Below, one piece after another: positions 11,821-44,846 of a stretch of 64,000 nucleotides of DNA. A program made the position numbers and the translations under genes. Location of the stretch: assembly GCF_900176435.1 (NCBI RefSeq), contig NZ_FWYE01000004.1, forward strand, positions 124,001-188,000. The letters are read 5' to 3'. Source of the DNA: Picrophilus oshimae DSM 9789 (lineage in GTDB: Archaea; Thermoplasmatota; Thermoplasmata; Thermoplasmatales; Thermoplasmataceae). The first letter of the stretch is position 1, and every line of letters starts with the position of its first letter. The notes beneath the pieces were generated by a model. It did no database searches, was not told the origin of the DNA, and saw only the letters and a list, made by a program, of their open reading frames with translations.

Positions 11821-12399
11821 ATGACTAAACTTTTAATTCCTGACAGAAGATTTACATTATATAATTCACTTAAAAGGGGATTGCCGATGCTGGTAATACC
11901 GCCATTACTTCTTGTAATAATTCTTTACTCAAAGAATTTTTACCTGCTTGAGTACCTGCACGTTGTTTCCGGATCAATGTGAACCGGCATGGATCTTGTC
12001 CTTGGTATCTTCTTTTCATATGTTATGAAGGGTTTAAACAACATTCAAAGAACATATATTTCAATGAGATTGACACCAACAATGCTCTTCTTTATGCCGG
12101 CGATATCAACGGTAACAATAACGGCAGGCGTGTATACCGCAATGGACCTTTCAATACCATTTACATCAATTTATATAATAATTGCACTTGTCATTGCAGG
12201 AATACTTTTCATTCAGGGCATTGGTATATTCCTGCCGAATGAATTAAGAATATATAAAGAGATTCTTCACGGAGCAGGAGATAAAAACAAGATCGTAAGG
12301 CTAACAATGTTAAATCTAAAACTTTCACTGATACAGGTAATATTTCAAATGGCCATTATATTATTAATGGCCCATTTTGCGACGGGTGTTTCAATATGA
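11821..12399 (+). pseudogene. Membrane protein gene interrupted by in-frame TGA at a conserved Trp codon
   Basis: One continuous frame runs from ATG 11821 to TGA 12397-12399, except for an internal TGA at 11980-11982. The translation before it (residues 1-53) and after it both align with the neighbouring paralogue at 12396-12911. Around the stop, EYLHVVSGSM-stop-TGMDLVLG faces DYVHVLLGVIWTGTDVFLG, so the TGA stands where the paralogue has Trp (TGG). The full product would be about 192 residues with four or five membrane helices, function unknown. Possible explanations are a recent nonsense mutation, a sequencing error, readthrough, or reinitiation at ATG 11989 giving 136 residues without the first helix. 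The end overlaps the next gene's ATG as ATGA. Confidence 0.75.
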
Positions 12400-12911
12400 A
12401 TTATAAATTAGGATATTTATCTTTAATAATACCATTGGTTGCGTTTATTGTGGCATTTCTTATACCTGGCATACTTATTCTGGACTATGTTCATGTTCTT
12501 CTGGGCGTTATATGGACAGGAACTGATGTATTTCTTGGCCTCATATTTTTTATAGTAATGTCCGGTATGGATGATTCAATAAGATTTGATATCTCAAAAA
12601 GATTAATACCAATGATACTATTTTTTATACCAGGCGTTTCAATAATAACACCACTGGCAGGATACGAGCTATCATTAAGGGAGCATATATTTAAGTTTGA
12701 TATTCTTTTTATATTAATTCTGATAATTTCGTTAATACTTGTTTTGCTAAGTTTAGTATTTATATTAAGATACGCATTGTTTATTAATAAAAGCCTTGAT
12801 AAACATGCTGTCTCATTAAAAATGAAAAAGATATCAATTGTTGCATCAATACAGCTTGTTCTTCAGATATCAATAATAAGCCTAATGGCATACATCGTTG
12901 TTTTCATATGA
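12396..12911 (+). CDS. Hypothetical four/five-helix membrane protein, paralogue of upstream gene
   Basis: A 171-residue integral membrane protein with hydrophobic segments near 8-33, 38-58, 73-91, 104-128 and 148-170. DYVHVLLGVIWTGTDVFLG in the second segment resembles the helix of small haem- or copper-related membrane families that carry a His and a Trp-x-Gly, but I cannot assign a family. ATG 12396 overlaps the previous stop (ATGA), so translation is probably coupled. The two proteins likely form a heteromer, or did before the first gene was interrupted. Confidence 0.7.
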   Translation: MNYKLGYLSLIIPLVAFIVAFLIPGILILDYVHVLLGVIWTGTDVFLGLIFFIVMSGMDDSIRFDISKRLIPMILFFIPGVSIITPLAGYELSLREHIFKFDILFILILIISLILVLLSLVFILRYALFINKSLDKHAVSLKMKKISIVASIQLVLQISIISLMAYIVVFI

Positions 12912-13130: not shown

Positions 13131-16100
13131 TCATGCCTTTAAAAGCTCCTTTAATCTCAGGCATTTTTCAATGTACAGTGTAAAATTTATTGGCGTAAAA
13201 ACGCTTAATGCGCTGTCCAGTGCCATATTGCATTTTTCCTGCTCCCCATCCATGTGATAAAGAACCGCAAGCTCATACATGTATATACCATAGTATATAT
13301 CAAAACCATGCTCATGAAATTTTAATGCTGAATCGTTCATTAATTTCTTTGCAGCATCACGGTTTCCAAAGTATGATTGATAATAGGATTCAGCTATGTT
13401 CATGTATGAACCTATCCACCAGAGTCCGTATTTATTATATTCATTTTTGATCAATGATAAATATTTTATGGCATTTTCGCTGTTATTTGCAATTGATGAT
13501 ACGTAAACAGCGTGCATCAATGTTATAATATAGCCCTTTATTGTATCGCCTGTGATCTCACCATCTATTTTTTTTATAATATCTTCAATGTAATCATATA
13601 TTTCTGTGATTTTTTTATTGTCAACAAAGATTGGCACCTTTACCTCCGGTATCGATGTTAAGACCTGCATTGACGGTATCTTCTCAAGCTCTGATATTAA
13701 CGTGATTGTTTTATCAATATCACCATGAAAGTAATCAAAATAGAGCTCGCCAAATTTTGAGACCATAATATAAAAATCATCCCTTGAATTGCTTTTAAAG
13801 ACCATATCAAAGTATCTGTTAACAACGTCCCTATTGCCGCTTAAAAATAGCTCCTCGTATTTGGATATCTCAAGACGCGCTTTCTGGCCCCTGCTGATCT
13901 TTCCGGCAAATTGAATGCCCCTATCGAATGCCTGCTCGGCCTTTTTTAAATCAAAGACCATCCTGGCCATCATTGTCCCAAAATTGTTGAAAAGCGTTGA
14001 TAAGGTGTTAAGCAGTATTAAATCATCGGGATGTTTTTCAAGAAGATTTGTTGATTCATATGCTATTTCTTCATAGCTTTTAATTATATCATCAAGATCA
14101 CTGTATGAATTAAGTGGATGAACCAAAAGAAGTATTTCCTTGCATCTAATTGTATACTTATCATAATAGTTTATGCTCCTGACATAGTCAATGTATTTTT
14201 TGCCCCATTTTCTGGCCTCTGAAACATTGGCCGTGTACCATAAAGATCCTATAATTGCCGTTGATGCTATGCCTATAACCTCAGGATCTCCCTTGTTTTC
14301 ATAAAGCCTGTTTAAAAATGATCTCGTGTAATCTATATAATAATCAAATTTATTATATGATGCACTTGATATTAAAATTGATTCCGCGATCTTTTTATCC
14401 TCGCCGTACCTGTCAAAGATTCTTATGGCCTCATCGAGGTATATTGAATCATTTTCAGATATATCATTATTAAATACTGCGTTTTCTGATATTTTATACA
14501 ATAGATTTGCCCTTAGCATCTCGCTATCCTTTCCTGGTTTGTGTATCTCTCCAAGTATTTCAAGTGCCCTGCGGTATTCCTTTACGGCCTGATCAAACTG
14601 GAATGATTCTGACCAGTTATCGGCAAGCTTAATATTATAATCAAGGGCCTTTTGAAGGTTTCCAGCCTCCAAATAGTGCCTTGCAAGATCCCGGAAGAAT
14701 GCGCTGTTGTTATCCCCGTAGATGCTTTCAATTGCATTTGCTATCTTTGCATGAAGCTTTCTTTTTCTAAACATGCTCATATTTTCGTACAAATAATCAT
14801 GCAATTGTGGATTCGAAAAGAATAATCTAAACTCCCCTGGTGCGGTCTTCCTTTCATAAACGATCTTTCTTTTTATTGAGTTCTCTATTATCTTTTCAAA
14901 CTGGTTTTCATCAATGCCGGATATCGATTCAAGAACATCAACATCGAATTCATAGCCGATGACAGATGCCATTGATATAATGTCCATGGTTATATCATCC
15001 AGGCTTGATAATCTTTCCTTAATAAAAGAGCCTATTGATGATGGTATTCCTATTTCCTCTATCGGCTTTCTATCCCAGCTTCCATGTTCATCCCTGAATA
15101 TCAACTTCTTGTCCTTTAAAAGCTTTAATACCTCCTCTATGTAGAATGGATTCCCATCAGTTTTTACAAAGATAAAATCTGTAAACTCATCGCTTATTTT
15201 TGATACATCCTCGTTTAGCCTTGAGGCTATTAACATTGCAGTCTGTGGTCTGTCAAGATTTTTTGTCTCCATTTTATTTAAAATCCTGTTTGATATTATA
15301 TGATCCAGCTCATCGTTGTAAGAATCGCTTTTTGACATCGTTGCTATTATAACAAAACGGAGTGACTGCAATTTATCCATTATTGAATCTATTATACTTA
15401 AAGATCCGCTGTCAGCATAGTTTATATCGTCTATTTCCATGAGTACCGGGTACTCAATTGACATATTTTTTATTATTTCTATAACGCCATCGTAGAATCT
15501 AAGCCTTGCCTGATCAGGCTCACTGGACATGTAATCATTGATTCTTCCAAGTTTTGAAATTAGTTCAGGAAGTATCTTTACGGCAACATCACCATAATCA
15601 CCACAGACCTTGTAAACAAGCTGCTGCGGGGCCTCGTAAAAGAACTCACGGAACATCTCTGTAAACAGGTAATTCGGTGTTGACATTCTTGATTCACGAC
15701 CCTTTAAGAGTATCGATTTTGTTCCACGCAAAACAGCATAATCCATGGTCTTTTCAAGGATCCTTGTCTTTCCCTGACCGGACTCGCCTGTTATTAAATA
15801 TATGCTGCCGGAGCCTGATAATCCGGAATCTACAGCAGACTGTAACTCCGAAATTATACTATCAAGACCTATAAGCATAGACTGATCTTTATATGAATCT
15901 GTTTTTTCAATTATTTCTTTTTTATTATCAGGCCTGTTTTCCATTTCAAGGGCCTTCAGGGCGTATAATAATTCATCTGCGCTTTGAAATCTGTCATCCG
16001 GGTTCTTTCTTAAAAGCTTCATTATTATTGAATCCAGCTGCCTTGGAATATCCTTGTTTATCTTTGATGGTTCAGCCGGATAATCGTGTATATGGCTATA

Positions 16101-16751
16101 TATCAATTTTATCGTATCATTTATTGTAAATGGTGGCCTTCCTGTGCTCATATAGTATAGAACACAGCCAAGTGAGTAAAGATCTGATCTGTTATCAGAT
16201 TCCCTGCCAAGGGCGCTTTCAGGTGATAGATATGCCGGTGTACCAACTATCGTTCCTGCCCTTGTTATTCCGGGTCTATCAAGGGCCTTTGCAAGACCGA
16301 AATCCATTAACTTTGGCTCACCGTTCTTTGAGACCATTATGTTCTCTGGTTTAATATCTCTATGCAGCACGCCGTTTTTATGCGCGTATGAAAGCGCAGA
16401 TGTAATTGGTATAATTAAACTAAGTATTTCATCAAGTTTTAATGGCTTATTATCTATGTAATCCAGAAGATCCTTACCATCTATGTATTCTATAACCATG
16501 AAGAACCTGTTATCTTCCTTCTGCATGTCATATATTGAAACAATGTTTGGATGTGATAACCTTGCAGTTGTCTCAGCCTCTCTAATAATCCTTGAATATG
16601 ATTCATCATCAAGGCTCTCACTTTTTATTAACTTCAATGCAACTATTCTGTTTAAATTATTGTCAATGCATTTATAAACAATGCCCTTGCCCCCCTCGCC
16701 AAGCTTTTTAATAACAGAATATCTGTTATTTCCAAAAGTTTCATCCATCAT
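13131..16751 (-). CDS. Ser/Thr protein kinase fused to AAA-type ATPase and TPR repeats
   Basis: About 1206 residues. In the numbering from the longer in-frame start at 16778, the kinase domain (about 19-275) is complete: glycine loop GEGGKGIVY (27-35), VALK lysine (49), HRDIKPEN (139-146), DFG (159-161), SPE for APE (185-187). Next comes a P-loop ATPase with Walker A GESGQGKT (331-338) and Walker B-like VLMEIDD (about 445-451), then helical TPR-like repeats to the C-terminus. The layout resembles bacterial PknK-like kinases and MalT-type regulators without a DNA-binding domain. No transmembrane helix is seen, so it is cytosolic. ATG 16751 follows a GGTG site, and the next codon is also ATG. 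It likely senses a ligand or partner through the ATPase/TPR part and phosphorylates unknown proteins. Confidence 0.88.
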   Translation of the reverse strand: MMDETFGNNRYSVIKKLGEGGKGIVYKCIDNNLNRIVALKLIKSESLDDESYSRIIREAETTARLSHPNIVSIYDMQKEDNRFFMVIEYIDGKDLLDYIDNKPLKLDEILSLIIPITSALSYAHKNGVLHRDIKPENIMVSKNGEPKLMDFGLAKALDRPGITRAGTIVGTPAYLSPESALGRESDNRSDLYSLGCVLYYMSTGRPPFTINDTIKLIYSHIHDYPAEPSKINKDIPRQLDSIIMKLLRKNPDDRFQSADELLYALKALEMENRPDNKKEIIEKTDSYKDQSMLIGLDSIISELQSAVDSGLSGSGSIYLITGESGQGKTRILEKTMDYAVLRGTKSILLKGRESRMSTPNYLFTEMFREFFYEAPQQLVYKVCGDYGDVAVKILPELISKLGRINDYMSSEPDQARLRFYDGVIEIIKNMSIEYPVLMEIDDINYADSGSLSIIDSIMDKLQSLRFVIIATMSKSDSYNDELDHIISNRILNKMETKNLDRPQTAMLIASRLNEDVSKISDEFTDFIFVKTDGNPFYIEEVLKLLKDKKLIFRDEHGSWDRKPIEEIGIPSSIGSFIKERLSSLDDITMDIISMASVIGYEFDVDVLESISGIDENQFEKIIENSIKRKIVYERKTAPGEFRLFFSNPQLHDYLYENMSMFRKRKLHAKIANAIESIYGDNNSAFFRDLARHYLEAGNLQKALDYNIKLADNWSESFQFDQAVKEYRRALEILGEIHKPGKDSEMLRANLLYKISENAVFNNDISENDSIYLDEAIRIFDRYGEDKKIAESILISSASYNKFDYYIDYTRSFLNRLYENKGDPEVIGIASTAIIGSLWYTANVSEARKWGKKYIDYVRSINYYDKYTIRCKEILLLVHPLNSYSDLDDIIKSYEEIAYESTNLLEKHPDDLILLNTLSTLFNNFGTMMARMVFDLKKAEQAFDRGIQFAGKISRGQKARLEISKYEELFLSGNRDVVNRYFDMVFKSNSRDDFYIMVSKFGELYFDYFHGDIDKTITLISELEKIPSMQVLTSIPEVKVPIFVDNKKITEIYDYIEDIIKKIDGEITGDTIKGYIITLMHAVYVSSIANNSENAIKYLSLIKNEYNKYGLWWIGSYMNIAESYYQSYFGNRDAAKKLMNDSALKFHEHGFDIYYGIYMYELAVLYHMDGEQEKCNMALDSALSVFTPINFTLYIEKCLRLKELLKA

Positions 16752-16950
16752 AACACCTTTATTATAAAAATATAACATGATAAAGTTTAAAAATATTTTG
16801 TTAATTTTTTATGTCTCTTAATAAAAGTGACATAATATTAATAAATTATAAAAAATTAAGAATATTTAAATTATAAAATAACGTATTTTGTTAAAGATTA
16901 TTTTGAATTAAAAATAAAAAATTTAAACCATAAATTTAATATATGACTGA

Positions 16951-16982: not shown

Positions 16983-17183
16983 ATGAAATTAAATCTAATG
17001 AGGATAATTTTATCCTTTTTGCTGCTGGTAACCATTGATGCCTATCTGTATATAACAGGCCTGGCGATACCGCAGAAATTTTCATATGACTATGGTTTAA
17101 TTGATATCGTTATATCATCCATTCTTTTGGCCATTCTAGTTTATAATATTATAAAATATGTTATTGAATCTGGAAGAACATAA
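16983..17183 (+). CDS. Small two-helix membrane protein, hypothetical
   Basis: This encodes 66 residues with two hydrophobic helices (about 8-28 and 38-59) and a short polar loop (PQKFSYDYG). The C-terminus is RT after a positively charged turn. No family is recognised. A well-placed TATA box and a clean ATG support expression. It sits between the kinase-ATPase gene (divergent) and the prpenyltransferase fusion gene (convergent). It could be a membrane partner of either neighbour, but nothing in the sequence proves that. Confidence 0.55.
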   Translation: MKLNLMRIILSFLLLVTIDAYLYITGLAIPQKFSYDYGLIDIVISSILLAILVYNIIKYVIESGRT

Positions 17184-41702: not shown

Positions 41703-44700
41703 ATGGCTTCAATTGAAAAAGTCAGGAAAAAGCTTTATAATTACATGGAAAACATTGATGATGAAAAAAATTTAAACGCTGCATTGAAGATTATAAAAGG
41801 ATATATGAACGATCTTGATGGCATGGATTTAAACAATTTTTATAGACTAATAATTAAAAAAAATCTATGCAGCATGGCAGTTTCAAGGATTAATATTGAA
41901 TTATTTAATGCTTGTTTAAATGCTTTAAGATCAAACGACACAGAATTTATAAATTATATAAAAAATAACAGGATACTTCTTGAAAATCCTGAGATAAATA
42001 ACAGATTAAATAAAATATTATCAAATAAAAGTATATATGATAAGGCCGCAATAATATCATACATTGGCATGTACGATGATATTATAGAGGAGGTTTTTAA
42101 GACCCATGACGAAAATTCAATAAGGCGCATATTAAAAAATTATAATAATAGTGAATACGAGGAAATGGCGATAAAAAAGGCGCTGGAATACAATAAAAAC
42201 TTTTTAAGGGATCTTGCGGATTACTATGCAAGGAAAAACGATTTGAAAAATTTAAGGTTTATCATGGACGAGCTCATAAAAAACAATGTAGATAATGTTT
42301 CACACTATTTTTATATACTTGGAGATTACGAAAATGCAATAAAATATGCAAAAAATGATGATAAGGAAATAGCAGATTCCTACTTTAGAACTGGAATGCT
42401 TTTAAAGGCGCTTGATATTTACATAAATATCTTCAGGAATTATGACAGATCTGTTCTCATGAACATTATAGAAATAGAGCATGAGCTTAAAAATTACAGG
42501 GAGATGAACATATATATTGATATTTATGAGCGTGAGAATGGTTTAAATAAAAAAATAATGCTGTACAAAATTGACGGTTTTATATACACTGGAAAGTACG
42601 ATCTTGCCGTTTCTTATGCTGAAAAATACATAGAAAACTTTGGCCTTGATAAGGATATAACAATGGAGCGGATAAAGATCTACGATGGCTTAAAGGATTA
42701 TAGCATGCTTTACAGTGCATGCATGGATGCATATAATAACAATATCAGGAATGATTATATATACTCAAACATAATAAAATACTATTATTATAATATGGAT
42801 TACAATGAAATAATCAAATTTATAGAGGAGAACAATTTAGAACAGATGTTCCCTGGATATTATATATCATCAAAGATATACCTTGGTGATGACGTTAATT
42901 ATAATTATATAGACAGACATGTTTTGAACGCCGTCTTTGCAACGTATAGATCCGATGAGAAGCTGAAGTTAAACAACGATCCCAGAATTAATGCGATAGT
43001 ATCATTTATGCGTGGCGAGCCGCTTGGAGGTTTCAATGACTGCTCATCATCCGCAACCTGTTATATTTCAAATGTTAGATCTTTTGATTTTGATCCAAAA
43101 AAGGTAATATTAAATAATTTAAACCCAAGATATAATGATGTTTATGATATTATATCGACCATAAGGGATATTGTAAATGGCCATTTTGACACTGACAATT
43201 ACGATTCTGAATTCTTCATTTATCCGTTTATAAACACGCTATTAAGGCTAAAAAGATATGACCTTGCACTGCTTGAACTGCAGAAGGTAAATGGAAGCGA
43301 TCCATTTTATTATTACTTTGCTGGAAAATACTATTACATTAAAAATGATTTTAACAGGGCACTAAAGTTCATAGAAAAATCCCTGTCAATGCTTAAGAAT
43401 TCATACTTCATTGCACTTGAAATAATGATATTAATAAAGCTCGAAAACTATGATGAGGCTTTAAAATACATGGATCTTTCATATAATCTTGGTCTTTACA
43501 ATACATTCAATATTTTATATTCAATGAATAATATTGATTTAAACATTGATATGATAGAACATATAAAGAATCTTAAACATCCCGGTATTTACAGAATATT
43601 AAGAGGGTTCTTTTTTAAGAATAAAAAGATAAGAGAATCCATAAAATACTCTGCAATGATATTAAAGGAATCAGGATCCTTAGACGATTATTTATACCAT
43701 TACTCAATTTTAAAATCATTAAATAACGATGCAGCCTTATCGTTTTTAATAAAAAATTCCATTAAATACAATGTTTTTTATGCGCTGATCTCAAGGATAT
43801 ACTATCAAAAAAGGGACCTTGAGGATTTCATTATAAATTATAATAATTACATATCAGCAAAAAGGCCGGAGAACATAAATATAGAATATAAAATATCAAT
43901 AAAGAAGAATCTTGAATATTTAGATTACTATTTCAATGAAAGGGGAATGTACCGTGATATCTTATATCTTTATATATTTGAAAATAAGTTCACAGATATA
44001 ATTAAAAATATGGGCAAGTTCATTGAAAACAATTTAATTTACGATATCCTGGATTTGTGGTGTGAGCCATCGGTAAAAAGGGCGGTAATTGATTATTCTT
44101 ATAAAAAGCCTGATAGAAAGATAATATACATGTGCATTAAAAGGTGCACAGGAAGCCGCCAGGTTTCCATGGCATCGAGATTATACAAGAAAACAGGATA
44201 TATTAAAGATTCAATATATTTATCATCAATAATGTTCAGGCACGGATTATACAAAGAGCTTTTCAAATTCCTGATCAGCAATTATATAAGATACAAAAAT
44301 GATGTGTTTTTAATTCTCTTCTACGCATTTTCATTCAGGGCAAGAAACTTTAACGGAATAATAAATGCATATTCAAATGGTATATTTATTGAGAGAAGGG
44401 AGATAATAATTAATGTAATAAAATCAATGTCTGCAACATTAAAAACAGACGATGCCATTAAAACCATTGAAAAGTACAGCTATTTATTTAATGAAGATGA
44501 TTTAAATAATCTAAGATATATAATTGAAAATTACAGAAGATTTTCAAGGATAATAGATTACGCAGGTGTTCTATTTAAATATGAGTACGACCATAAAAAG
44601 CGCCTGAACAGGGAAGATGCCTCCGTTGCAATACCTGAAAATTACATAGATCCTGTGTTCTCCTTCATTGAAAGTGATGATTTTTACATGTACCGCGAGG

Positions 44701-44846
44701 ATGAATTCTACATAAACATTATAAAGAATATAAAAACAGATGAGCTGAGCATTAACAGTATATACCATTATGTCAACGATGTTATACTTGCAAAGGACGT
44801 ATATCTTTACATAAAAATGGAGCCTGTTCACAATATACTTAAATAA
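41703..44846 (+). CDS. Large uncharacterised helical-repeat (TPR-like) protein
   Basis: The 1047 residues have no membrane helix or signal peptide and very high Asn/Lys/Ile/Tyr/Asp content. The chain is almost wholly helical with repeat-like pairs, for example near residues 205-240 (GDYENAIKYAKNDDKEIADSY), 290-320 (YTGKYDLAVSYAEKY), 510-590 (KRYDLALLELQKV, KNDFNRALKFIEKSL, ENYDEALKYMDLS). These read as TPR-like units in a long solenoid. A non-repeat insert of about 90 residues (about 415-505, with CSSSATCYISN) interrupts it, and the C-terminal about 85 residues (from about 960) lack repeats. I recognise no catalytic domain. It may be a scaffold. It stands alone between the kdp operon and the protease genes. 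Confidence 0.72.
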   Translation: MASIEKVRKKLYNYMENIDDEKNLNAALKIIKGYMNDLDGMDLNNFYRLIIKKNLCSMAVSRINIELFNACLNALRSNDTEFINYIKNNRILLENPEINNRLNKILSNKSIYDKAAIISYIGMYDDIIEEVFKTHDENSIRRILKNYNNSEYEEMAIKKALEYNKNFLRDLADYYARKNDLKNLRFIMDELIKNNVDNVSHYFYILGDYENAIKYAKNDDKEIADSYFRTGMLLKALDIYINIFRNYDRSVLMNIIEIEHELKNYREMNIYIDIYERENGLNKKIMLYKIDGFIYTGKYDLAVSYAEKYIENFGLDKDITMERIKIYDGLKDYSMLYSACMDAYNNNIRNDYIYSNIIKYYYYNMDYNEIIKFIEENNLEQMFPGYYISSKIYLGDDVNYNYIDRHVLNAVFATYRSDEKLKLNNDPRINAIVSFMRGEPLGGFNDCSSSATCYISNVRSFDFDPKKVILNNLNPRYNDVYDIISTIRDIVNGHFDTDNYDSEFFIYPFINTLLRLKRYDLALLELQKVNGSDPFYYYFAGKYYYIKNDFNRALKFIEKSLSMLKNSYFIALEIMILIKLENYDEALKYMDLSYNLGLYNTFNILYSMNNIDLNIDMIEHIKNLKHPGIYRILRGFFFKNKKIRESIKYSAMILKESGSLDDYLYHYSILKSLNNDAALSFLIKNSIKYNVFYALISRIYYQKRDLEDFIINYNNYISAKRPENINIEYKISIKKNLEYLDYYFNERGMYRDILYLYIFENKFTDIIKNMGKFIENNLIYDILDLWCEPSVKRAVIDYSYKKPDRKIIYMCIKRCTGSRQVSMASRLYKKTGYIKDSIYLSSIMFRHGLYKELFKFLISNYIRYKNDVFLILFYAFSFRARNFNGIINAYSNGIFIERREIIINVIKSMSATLKTDDAIKTIEKYSYLFNEDDLNNLRYIIENYRRFSRIIDYAGVLFKYEYDHKKRLNREDASVAIPENYIDPVFSFIESDDFYMYREDEFYINIIKNIKTDELSINSIYHYVNDVILAKDVYLYIKMEPVHNILK

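Follow-up and report, generated by a model that had tools for sequence, protein, structure and literature searches.

A Hanks-type kinase joined to a STAND-TPR protein in Picrophilus oshimae: domain order, possible origin and putative switch

The input sensing of archaeal Ser/Thr kinases is poorly understood, and a gene of Picrophilus oshimae DSM 9789 raises the question of how a bacterial-looking kinase came to be joined, in an archaeon, to a signal-transduction ATPase and a long repeat tail, and of how such a protein would be turned on. The window, i.e., the whole stretch of 64,000 nucleotides analysed here, belongs to a genome of 1.53 Mb from the order Thermoplasmatales and the phylum Thermoplasmatota (hereafter “the order” and “the phylum”). 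The initial annotation had considered archaeal kinases to be of the RIO, Bud32 or ABC1 types, a premise that fails: S. acidocaldarius and 29 of 61 relatives have Pkinase matches above the cut-off, and archaeal kinases of the Hanks type have already been characterised (PMC5682000, PMC5300886). On the other hand, no paper on an archaeal kinase-STAND-TPR family was found in the open-access literature.

The gene and its domains

The longest form of the open reading frame (13131-16778, minus strand) is open throughout and starts at an ATG at 16778, yielding 1215 residues; residue numbers are counted from this start (P0001 numbering). Nonetheless, the ATG at 16751 is the likely start, since AAAGGTG lies just 5′ of it, the leader is kept in the same-genus copy and the family members begin approximately there. 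The AAAGGTG site together with the family alignment thus places the gene at 13131..16751 (minus strand; 1206 residues), and the frame reported by the initial annotation is a real one. Its presumably functional leader (16754..16800, minus strand) is near-identical in the same-genus orthologue, and includes a TATA-like stretch (~16782-16793) and the putative ribosome-binding site AAAGGTG (16754-16760), both on the minus strand.

Residues 20-268 (15975..16721, minus strand) form a PknB-like Ser/Thr kinase domain (Pfam Pkinase, E=4e-61); in the PDB it is matched best by PknB of M. tuberculosis (E about 1e-57). GxGxxG, K49, E67, the catalytic loop HRDIKPEN (16341..16364, minus strand; invariant in the family) and DFG are all present; DFG and the start of the activation loop lie at 16287..16304 (minus strand), and an invariant Thr172 follows in the family alignment. 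The sequence motifs of a Hanks-type kinase (glycine loop, catalytic Lys, HRD, DFG and APE-like) are intact, in agreement with the complete kinase domain first described. Invariance was counted over nine aligned full-length family members, in which the key kinase and Walker residues do not vary. Thr172 aligns with a Thr of PknB, and is a candidate phosphosite. The nearest kinase domains, with up to 42% identity, are those of the PknB/Stk1 PASTA kinases, from which the archaeal protein differs in the absence of a PASTA match and of any membrane-grade hydrophobic segment along its whole length; the model for these kinases (NCBIfam NF033483) yielded a score of 326.6 bits, below its cut-off of 450 bits, and matched residues 17-292 only.

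A variable linker (residues 281-299; 15882..15938, minus strand), with 5-18% identity outside the genus and a dN/dS of 0.44 within it, leads to the STAND nucleotide-binding domain (residues 300-480; 15339..15881, minus strand), recognised by Pfam AAA_16 (E=2e-12, residues 302-478) and by its predicted fold. This P-loop NTPase carries both a Walker A motif (GESGQGKT; 15765..15788, minus strand), with invariant G331, G334, G336 and K337, and a Walker B motif (LMEIDD; 15426..15443, minus strand), with invariant D451, so that the ATPase noticed at the outset can be specified as a STAND NTPase. As the TPR matches in the solenoid tail stay under the Pfam cut-offs, the tail was modelled with AlphaFold2 (residues 292-1215, 11 sequences; mean pLDDT 86, pTM 0.59). 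In the model, a P-loop domain is followed by a helical lid, then by a winged helix (about residues 580-655; 14814..15041, minus strand) made of helices and a two-strand wing, and finally by ~29 helices in hairpins. These hairpins would run unbroken from ~residue 657 to the C-terminus, forming a helical arm and a TPR-like solenoid sensor (about residues 657-1214; 13137..14810, minus strand; pLDDT mostly >80), consistent with the long TPR tail of the initial annotation. The best PDB fold match is PH0952 (6mfv; E=2e-9), a Pyrococcus STAND protein with a TPR sensor, followed by Apaf-1. The predicted succession of NTPase, winged helix, arm and repeat sensor is thus that of a STAND protein, the match to PH0952 being used for fold and domain order and not for detailed geometry, as the global TM-scores to it are low (0.19-0.25). 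The protein ends in a conserved cap (residues 1191-1215; 13134..13208, minus strand) whose last residues are LRLKELLKA, with an identity outside the genus of 42-56% vs. 15-24% in the preceding tail.

Evolutionary rates follow the same division. Comparison of the window gene with its same-genus copy (synonymous divergence close to 1 or higher, so that the ratios are rough) yielded dN/dS values of 0.05 for the kinase, 0.08 for the NTPase, 0.05 for the winged helix/arm, 0.25 for the tail and 0.04 for the last 25 residues, with 0.17-0.25 across residues 691-1190 of the solenoid. Roughly, kinase and switch are slow and the solenoid is fast.

A putative switch and its known counterparts

The STAND-TPR architecture is related to that of Apaf-1, NLR receptors and MalT, and the autoinhibition of PH0952 and MalT has been published (PMC6468293, PMC4381067). 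By analogy with them, the protein is most likely a cytosolic kinase that would be turned on when a ligand drives its STAND core to open and oligomerise. At rest it would be a closed, ADP-bound monomer, held by contacts of the arm and of the solenoid with the NTPase. A putative cytoplasmic ligand binding to the solenoid would open the NTPase core; as in PH0952 and MalT, ADP would then be replaced by ATP, and the protein would oligomerise. The kinase domains gathered in this way might phosphorylate each other on the activation loop, at the invariant Thr172, and the activated domains could then act on their targets. Since the kinase and a recognisable switch share one polypeptide, activation is testable on the purified protein.

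Known systems share parts of this design. PH0952 is likewise archaeal, with a STAND core, a winged helix and a TPR-like sensor, but its N-terminal effector is a putative ArsR-like DNA-binding domain (PMC6468293) instead of a Ser/Thr kinase. The nearest STAND relatives are class III cyclase-STAND-TPR proteins (L063, L064, L065, L067, and L073) from another family of the same archaeal class; their effector also precedes the STAND part, but it is a guanylate/adenylate cyclase domain, and the KELLKA-like C-terminus is absent there. In this sense, the family is an example of effector exchange (DNA-binding domain, cyclase, kinase) on a STAND-TPR chassis. The PknK-like arrangement, kinase then STAND ATPase in one chain, is also that of several bacterial fusions (PknK/MalT type, cyanobacterial multi-domain, TOMM kinase/cyclase), whose identity to the family is 28-35% for the kinase and about 20-26% for the STAND domain; the annotation of several of them includes histidine-kinase, PAS or cyclase parts. 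The Sulfolobales ArnC-type kinase is another archaeal Hanks-type kinase with TPR repeats, although its two TPR motifs lie ahead of the kinase domain and a STAND domain is not described for it (PMC5300886).

Origin and movement of the family

The two halves of the protein have different nearest relatives. The kinase domain is most similar to PknB-type kinases of bacteria (38-42% identity); with the remaining kinases of the phylum its identity does not exceed 38%, and with STAND-fused bacterial ones it lies at 28-35%. It is nested among the PknB-type kinases in a larger and in a pruned tree, where the sister relation to a PknB-type kinase hangs on one plasmid sequence (support 99/93 and 90/93, respectively). 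The STAND part, in turn, forms a clade with the archaeal class III cyclase-STAND-TPR proteins (98/94); outside the family it scores highest with archaeal cyclase-STAND proteins (up to 251 bits, 32% identity), and no sampled bacterial protein exceeds 134 bits. This discordance suggests that the gene was assembled. The archaeal rows of the comparison were found via the family's own profile and the sampling is biased in consequence, so it is likelier, not proven, that a PknB-type bacterial kinase was placed on a STAND-TPR chassis akin to that of the archaeal cyclase-STAND-TPR proteins, in an event separate from those behind the sampled bacterial fusions. The bacterial transfer first suggested would then apply to the kinase, with its 42% identity to PknB, but not to the STAND-TPR part. 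Considering origin and function jointly, we favour, on balance, a soluble Hanks-type kinase under a STAND switch, born from the joining of a PknB-type kinase to an archaeal STAND-TPR chassis, with later duplication and movement.

A distinctly less probable scenario is the import of a whole kinase-STAND-TPR gene from a bacterium with a PknK-like or cyanobacterial-type kinase-STAND protein, the sensor having diverged later. The same domain order recurs on bacterial plasmids, with about 25% identity to the archaeal protein, and the best plasmid matches cover both kinase and STAND (nine fetched examples). Furthermore, the AU tests are compatible with a clade uniting the kinase and the bacterial kinase-STAND fusions (p=0.35, 0.41), and with one of the STAND part and the main bacterial fusions (p=0.054). 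Against wholesale import, the STAND part scores far higher with archaeal cyclase-STAND proteins than with the sampled bacterial ones, the kinase is nearer to stand-alone PknB than to STAND-fused kinases, and most sampled bacterial fusions form a clade of their own, away from the family, in the best trees. A recent transfer is ruled out by composition, as GC3 is 0.365 vs. 0.363 in the neighbours and codon usage is ordinary, nearer to the pool than that of the average neighbour; any transfer must thus be old.

The family is sparsely distributed. With a threshold of E≤1e-100, matches were obtained in 13 of the order's 117 genomes and 10 of its 33 genera, and in four of its 51 good-quality genomes. 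In a profile search the full-length fusion appeared in 3/390 genomes of the phylum, all three from the order, while many genomes of the phylum encode STAND proteins that lack a kinase, or PknB-like kinases that lack a STAND part; a scan of genome contigs with the gene returned solely the same-genus copy. Archaeal sampling covered this one phylum, and bacterial sampling covered plasmids. The search for the same fusion in archaea recommended by the initial annotation thus revealed a domain order that is not broad in the phylum and whose pattern is non-vertical. The family tree, complicated by paralogues, intermixes two taxonomic families (f1 and f3), and places an f1 copy (G448) inside an f3 clade. 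This copy shares 85-88% DNA identity with f3 copies, the homology ending near both gene edges, and an adjacent ORF resembles, by reading of its sequence alone, the C-terminus of a transposase; G448 is a draft genome, where a misbinned contig could mimic transfer. It appears from these comparisons that the gene moves between lineages as a single gene, and it would have undergone duplication and movement within the order. In another genome, a short fragment (G042:C4:408514-408834) shares 62% identity with the beginning of the kinase domain and contains a stop, and is probably a decayed extra copy. An apparently split gene with separate kinase and STAND ORFs (G457) was discarded, as its junction holds NN, an assembly gap. 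Carriage by viruses was also rejected: 20 relatives on viral contigs match the kinase region alone, and the viral fold matches are general AAA/repeat proteins.

The patchy distribution, lateral movement, duplication and fast sensor of the family would also fit an anti-viral role, in which the cell would be shut down by the kinase once a viral protein has been recognised by the solenoid, similarly to STAND- or kinase-type defence. We consider this role improbable. The kinase domain does match the PD-T4-6 and mad6 defence models, but the best PADLOC matches barely exceed this domain, as they would for any PknB-like kinase (for PD-T4-6, residues 11-293 correspond to model positions 1-287 of 486). 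Besides, none of the neighbourhoods, inspected by eye, resembled a defence island, and the sensing of a metabolite or transporter would equally yield a variable sensor. The broader idea of order-specific, mobile NLR-like receptor kinases, whose fast solenoid would sense a foreign or viral ligand, with STAND oligomerisation and signalling by the bacterial-derived kinase, seems to us at least as doubtful. Finally, Hanks-type kinases are common in the phylum, but the vertical inheritance of an ancestral archaeal kinase, followed by many losses, is very improbable, given the confinement of the complete fusion to one order among the genomes searched, the mixture of f1 and f3 in the family tree and the lack of grouping with most other kinases of the phylum; this last grouping is rejected by the AU test in the pruned tree (p=0.031) but not in the larger one (p=0.126), which also qualifies the initial view of the kinase as unlike archaeal ones.

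Neighbouring genes and other loci

A divergent ORF of 66 residues with two hydrophobic helices (16983..17183, plus strand; no Pfam match) lies beside the gene. The small membrane protein of the initial annotation therefore exists, but it is no conserved partner: it is an orphan, matched in 0/40 relatives, the same genus included, and probably stands outside the kinase system. A conserved operon can also be discarded, as no gene neighbours are kept outside the genus.

The window was correctly described as devoid of an FHA partner, since the sole FHA match of the genome sits on another contig; both FHA and phosphatase genes are nonetheless found elsewhere in the genome, where PP2C_2 had no match. 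On contig C5 (L133:8621-11348), a protein with FHA and a zinc ribbon (ArnA-like), a calcineurin-like PPP-type phosphatase and an ArnB-like vWA protein adjoin, in an apparent operon resembling the Arn module of Sulfolobales. In Sulfolobus, the C-terminus of ArnB is a target of kinases, which phosphorylate it (PMC5300886), and both ArnA and ArnB are interaction partners of the phosphatase PP2A (PMC7472852). ArnB_C was detected in six of 61 relatives, coinciding with the fusion only in P. oshimae itself and in G021; in the four other genomes, a different kinase, encoded in a frame of about 790 aa, is found at a distance of about 3 kb. These presence patterns do not link ArnB_C and the fusion, and a functional tie to ArnB was not retained.

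The only other kinase of the genome over the Pfam cut-off (L058:9721-11556) is a membrane protein, with several hydrophobic stretches preceding a kinase-like domain in which HLD and SDLG replace HRD and DFG. Elsewhere in the window, a 1047-aa protein (41703-44846, plus strand) shows only weak TPR matches and no other domain. A membrane-protein gene (11821-12396, plus strand) contains one in-frame TGA (11980-11982), where Trp is found both in the orthologue of the same genus and in the neighbouring paralogue (12396-12911); this TGA may be a nonsense mutation, a sequencing error or a read-through codon.
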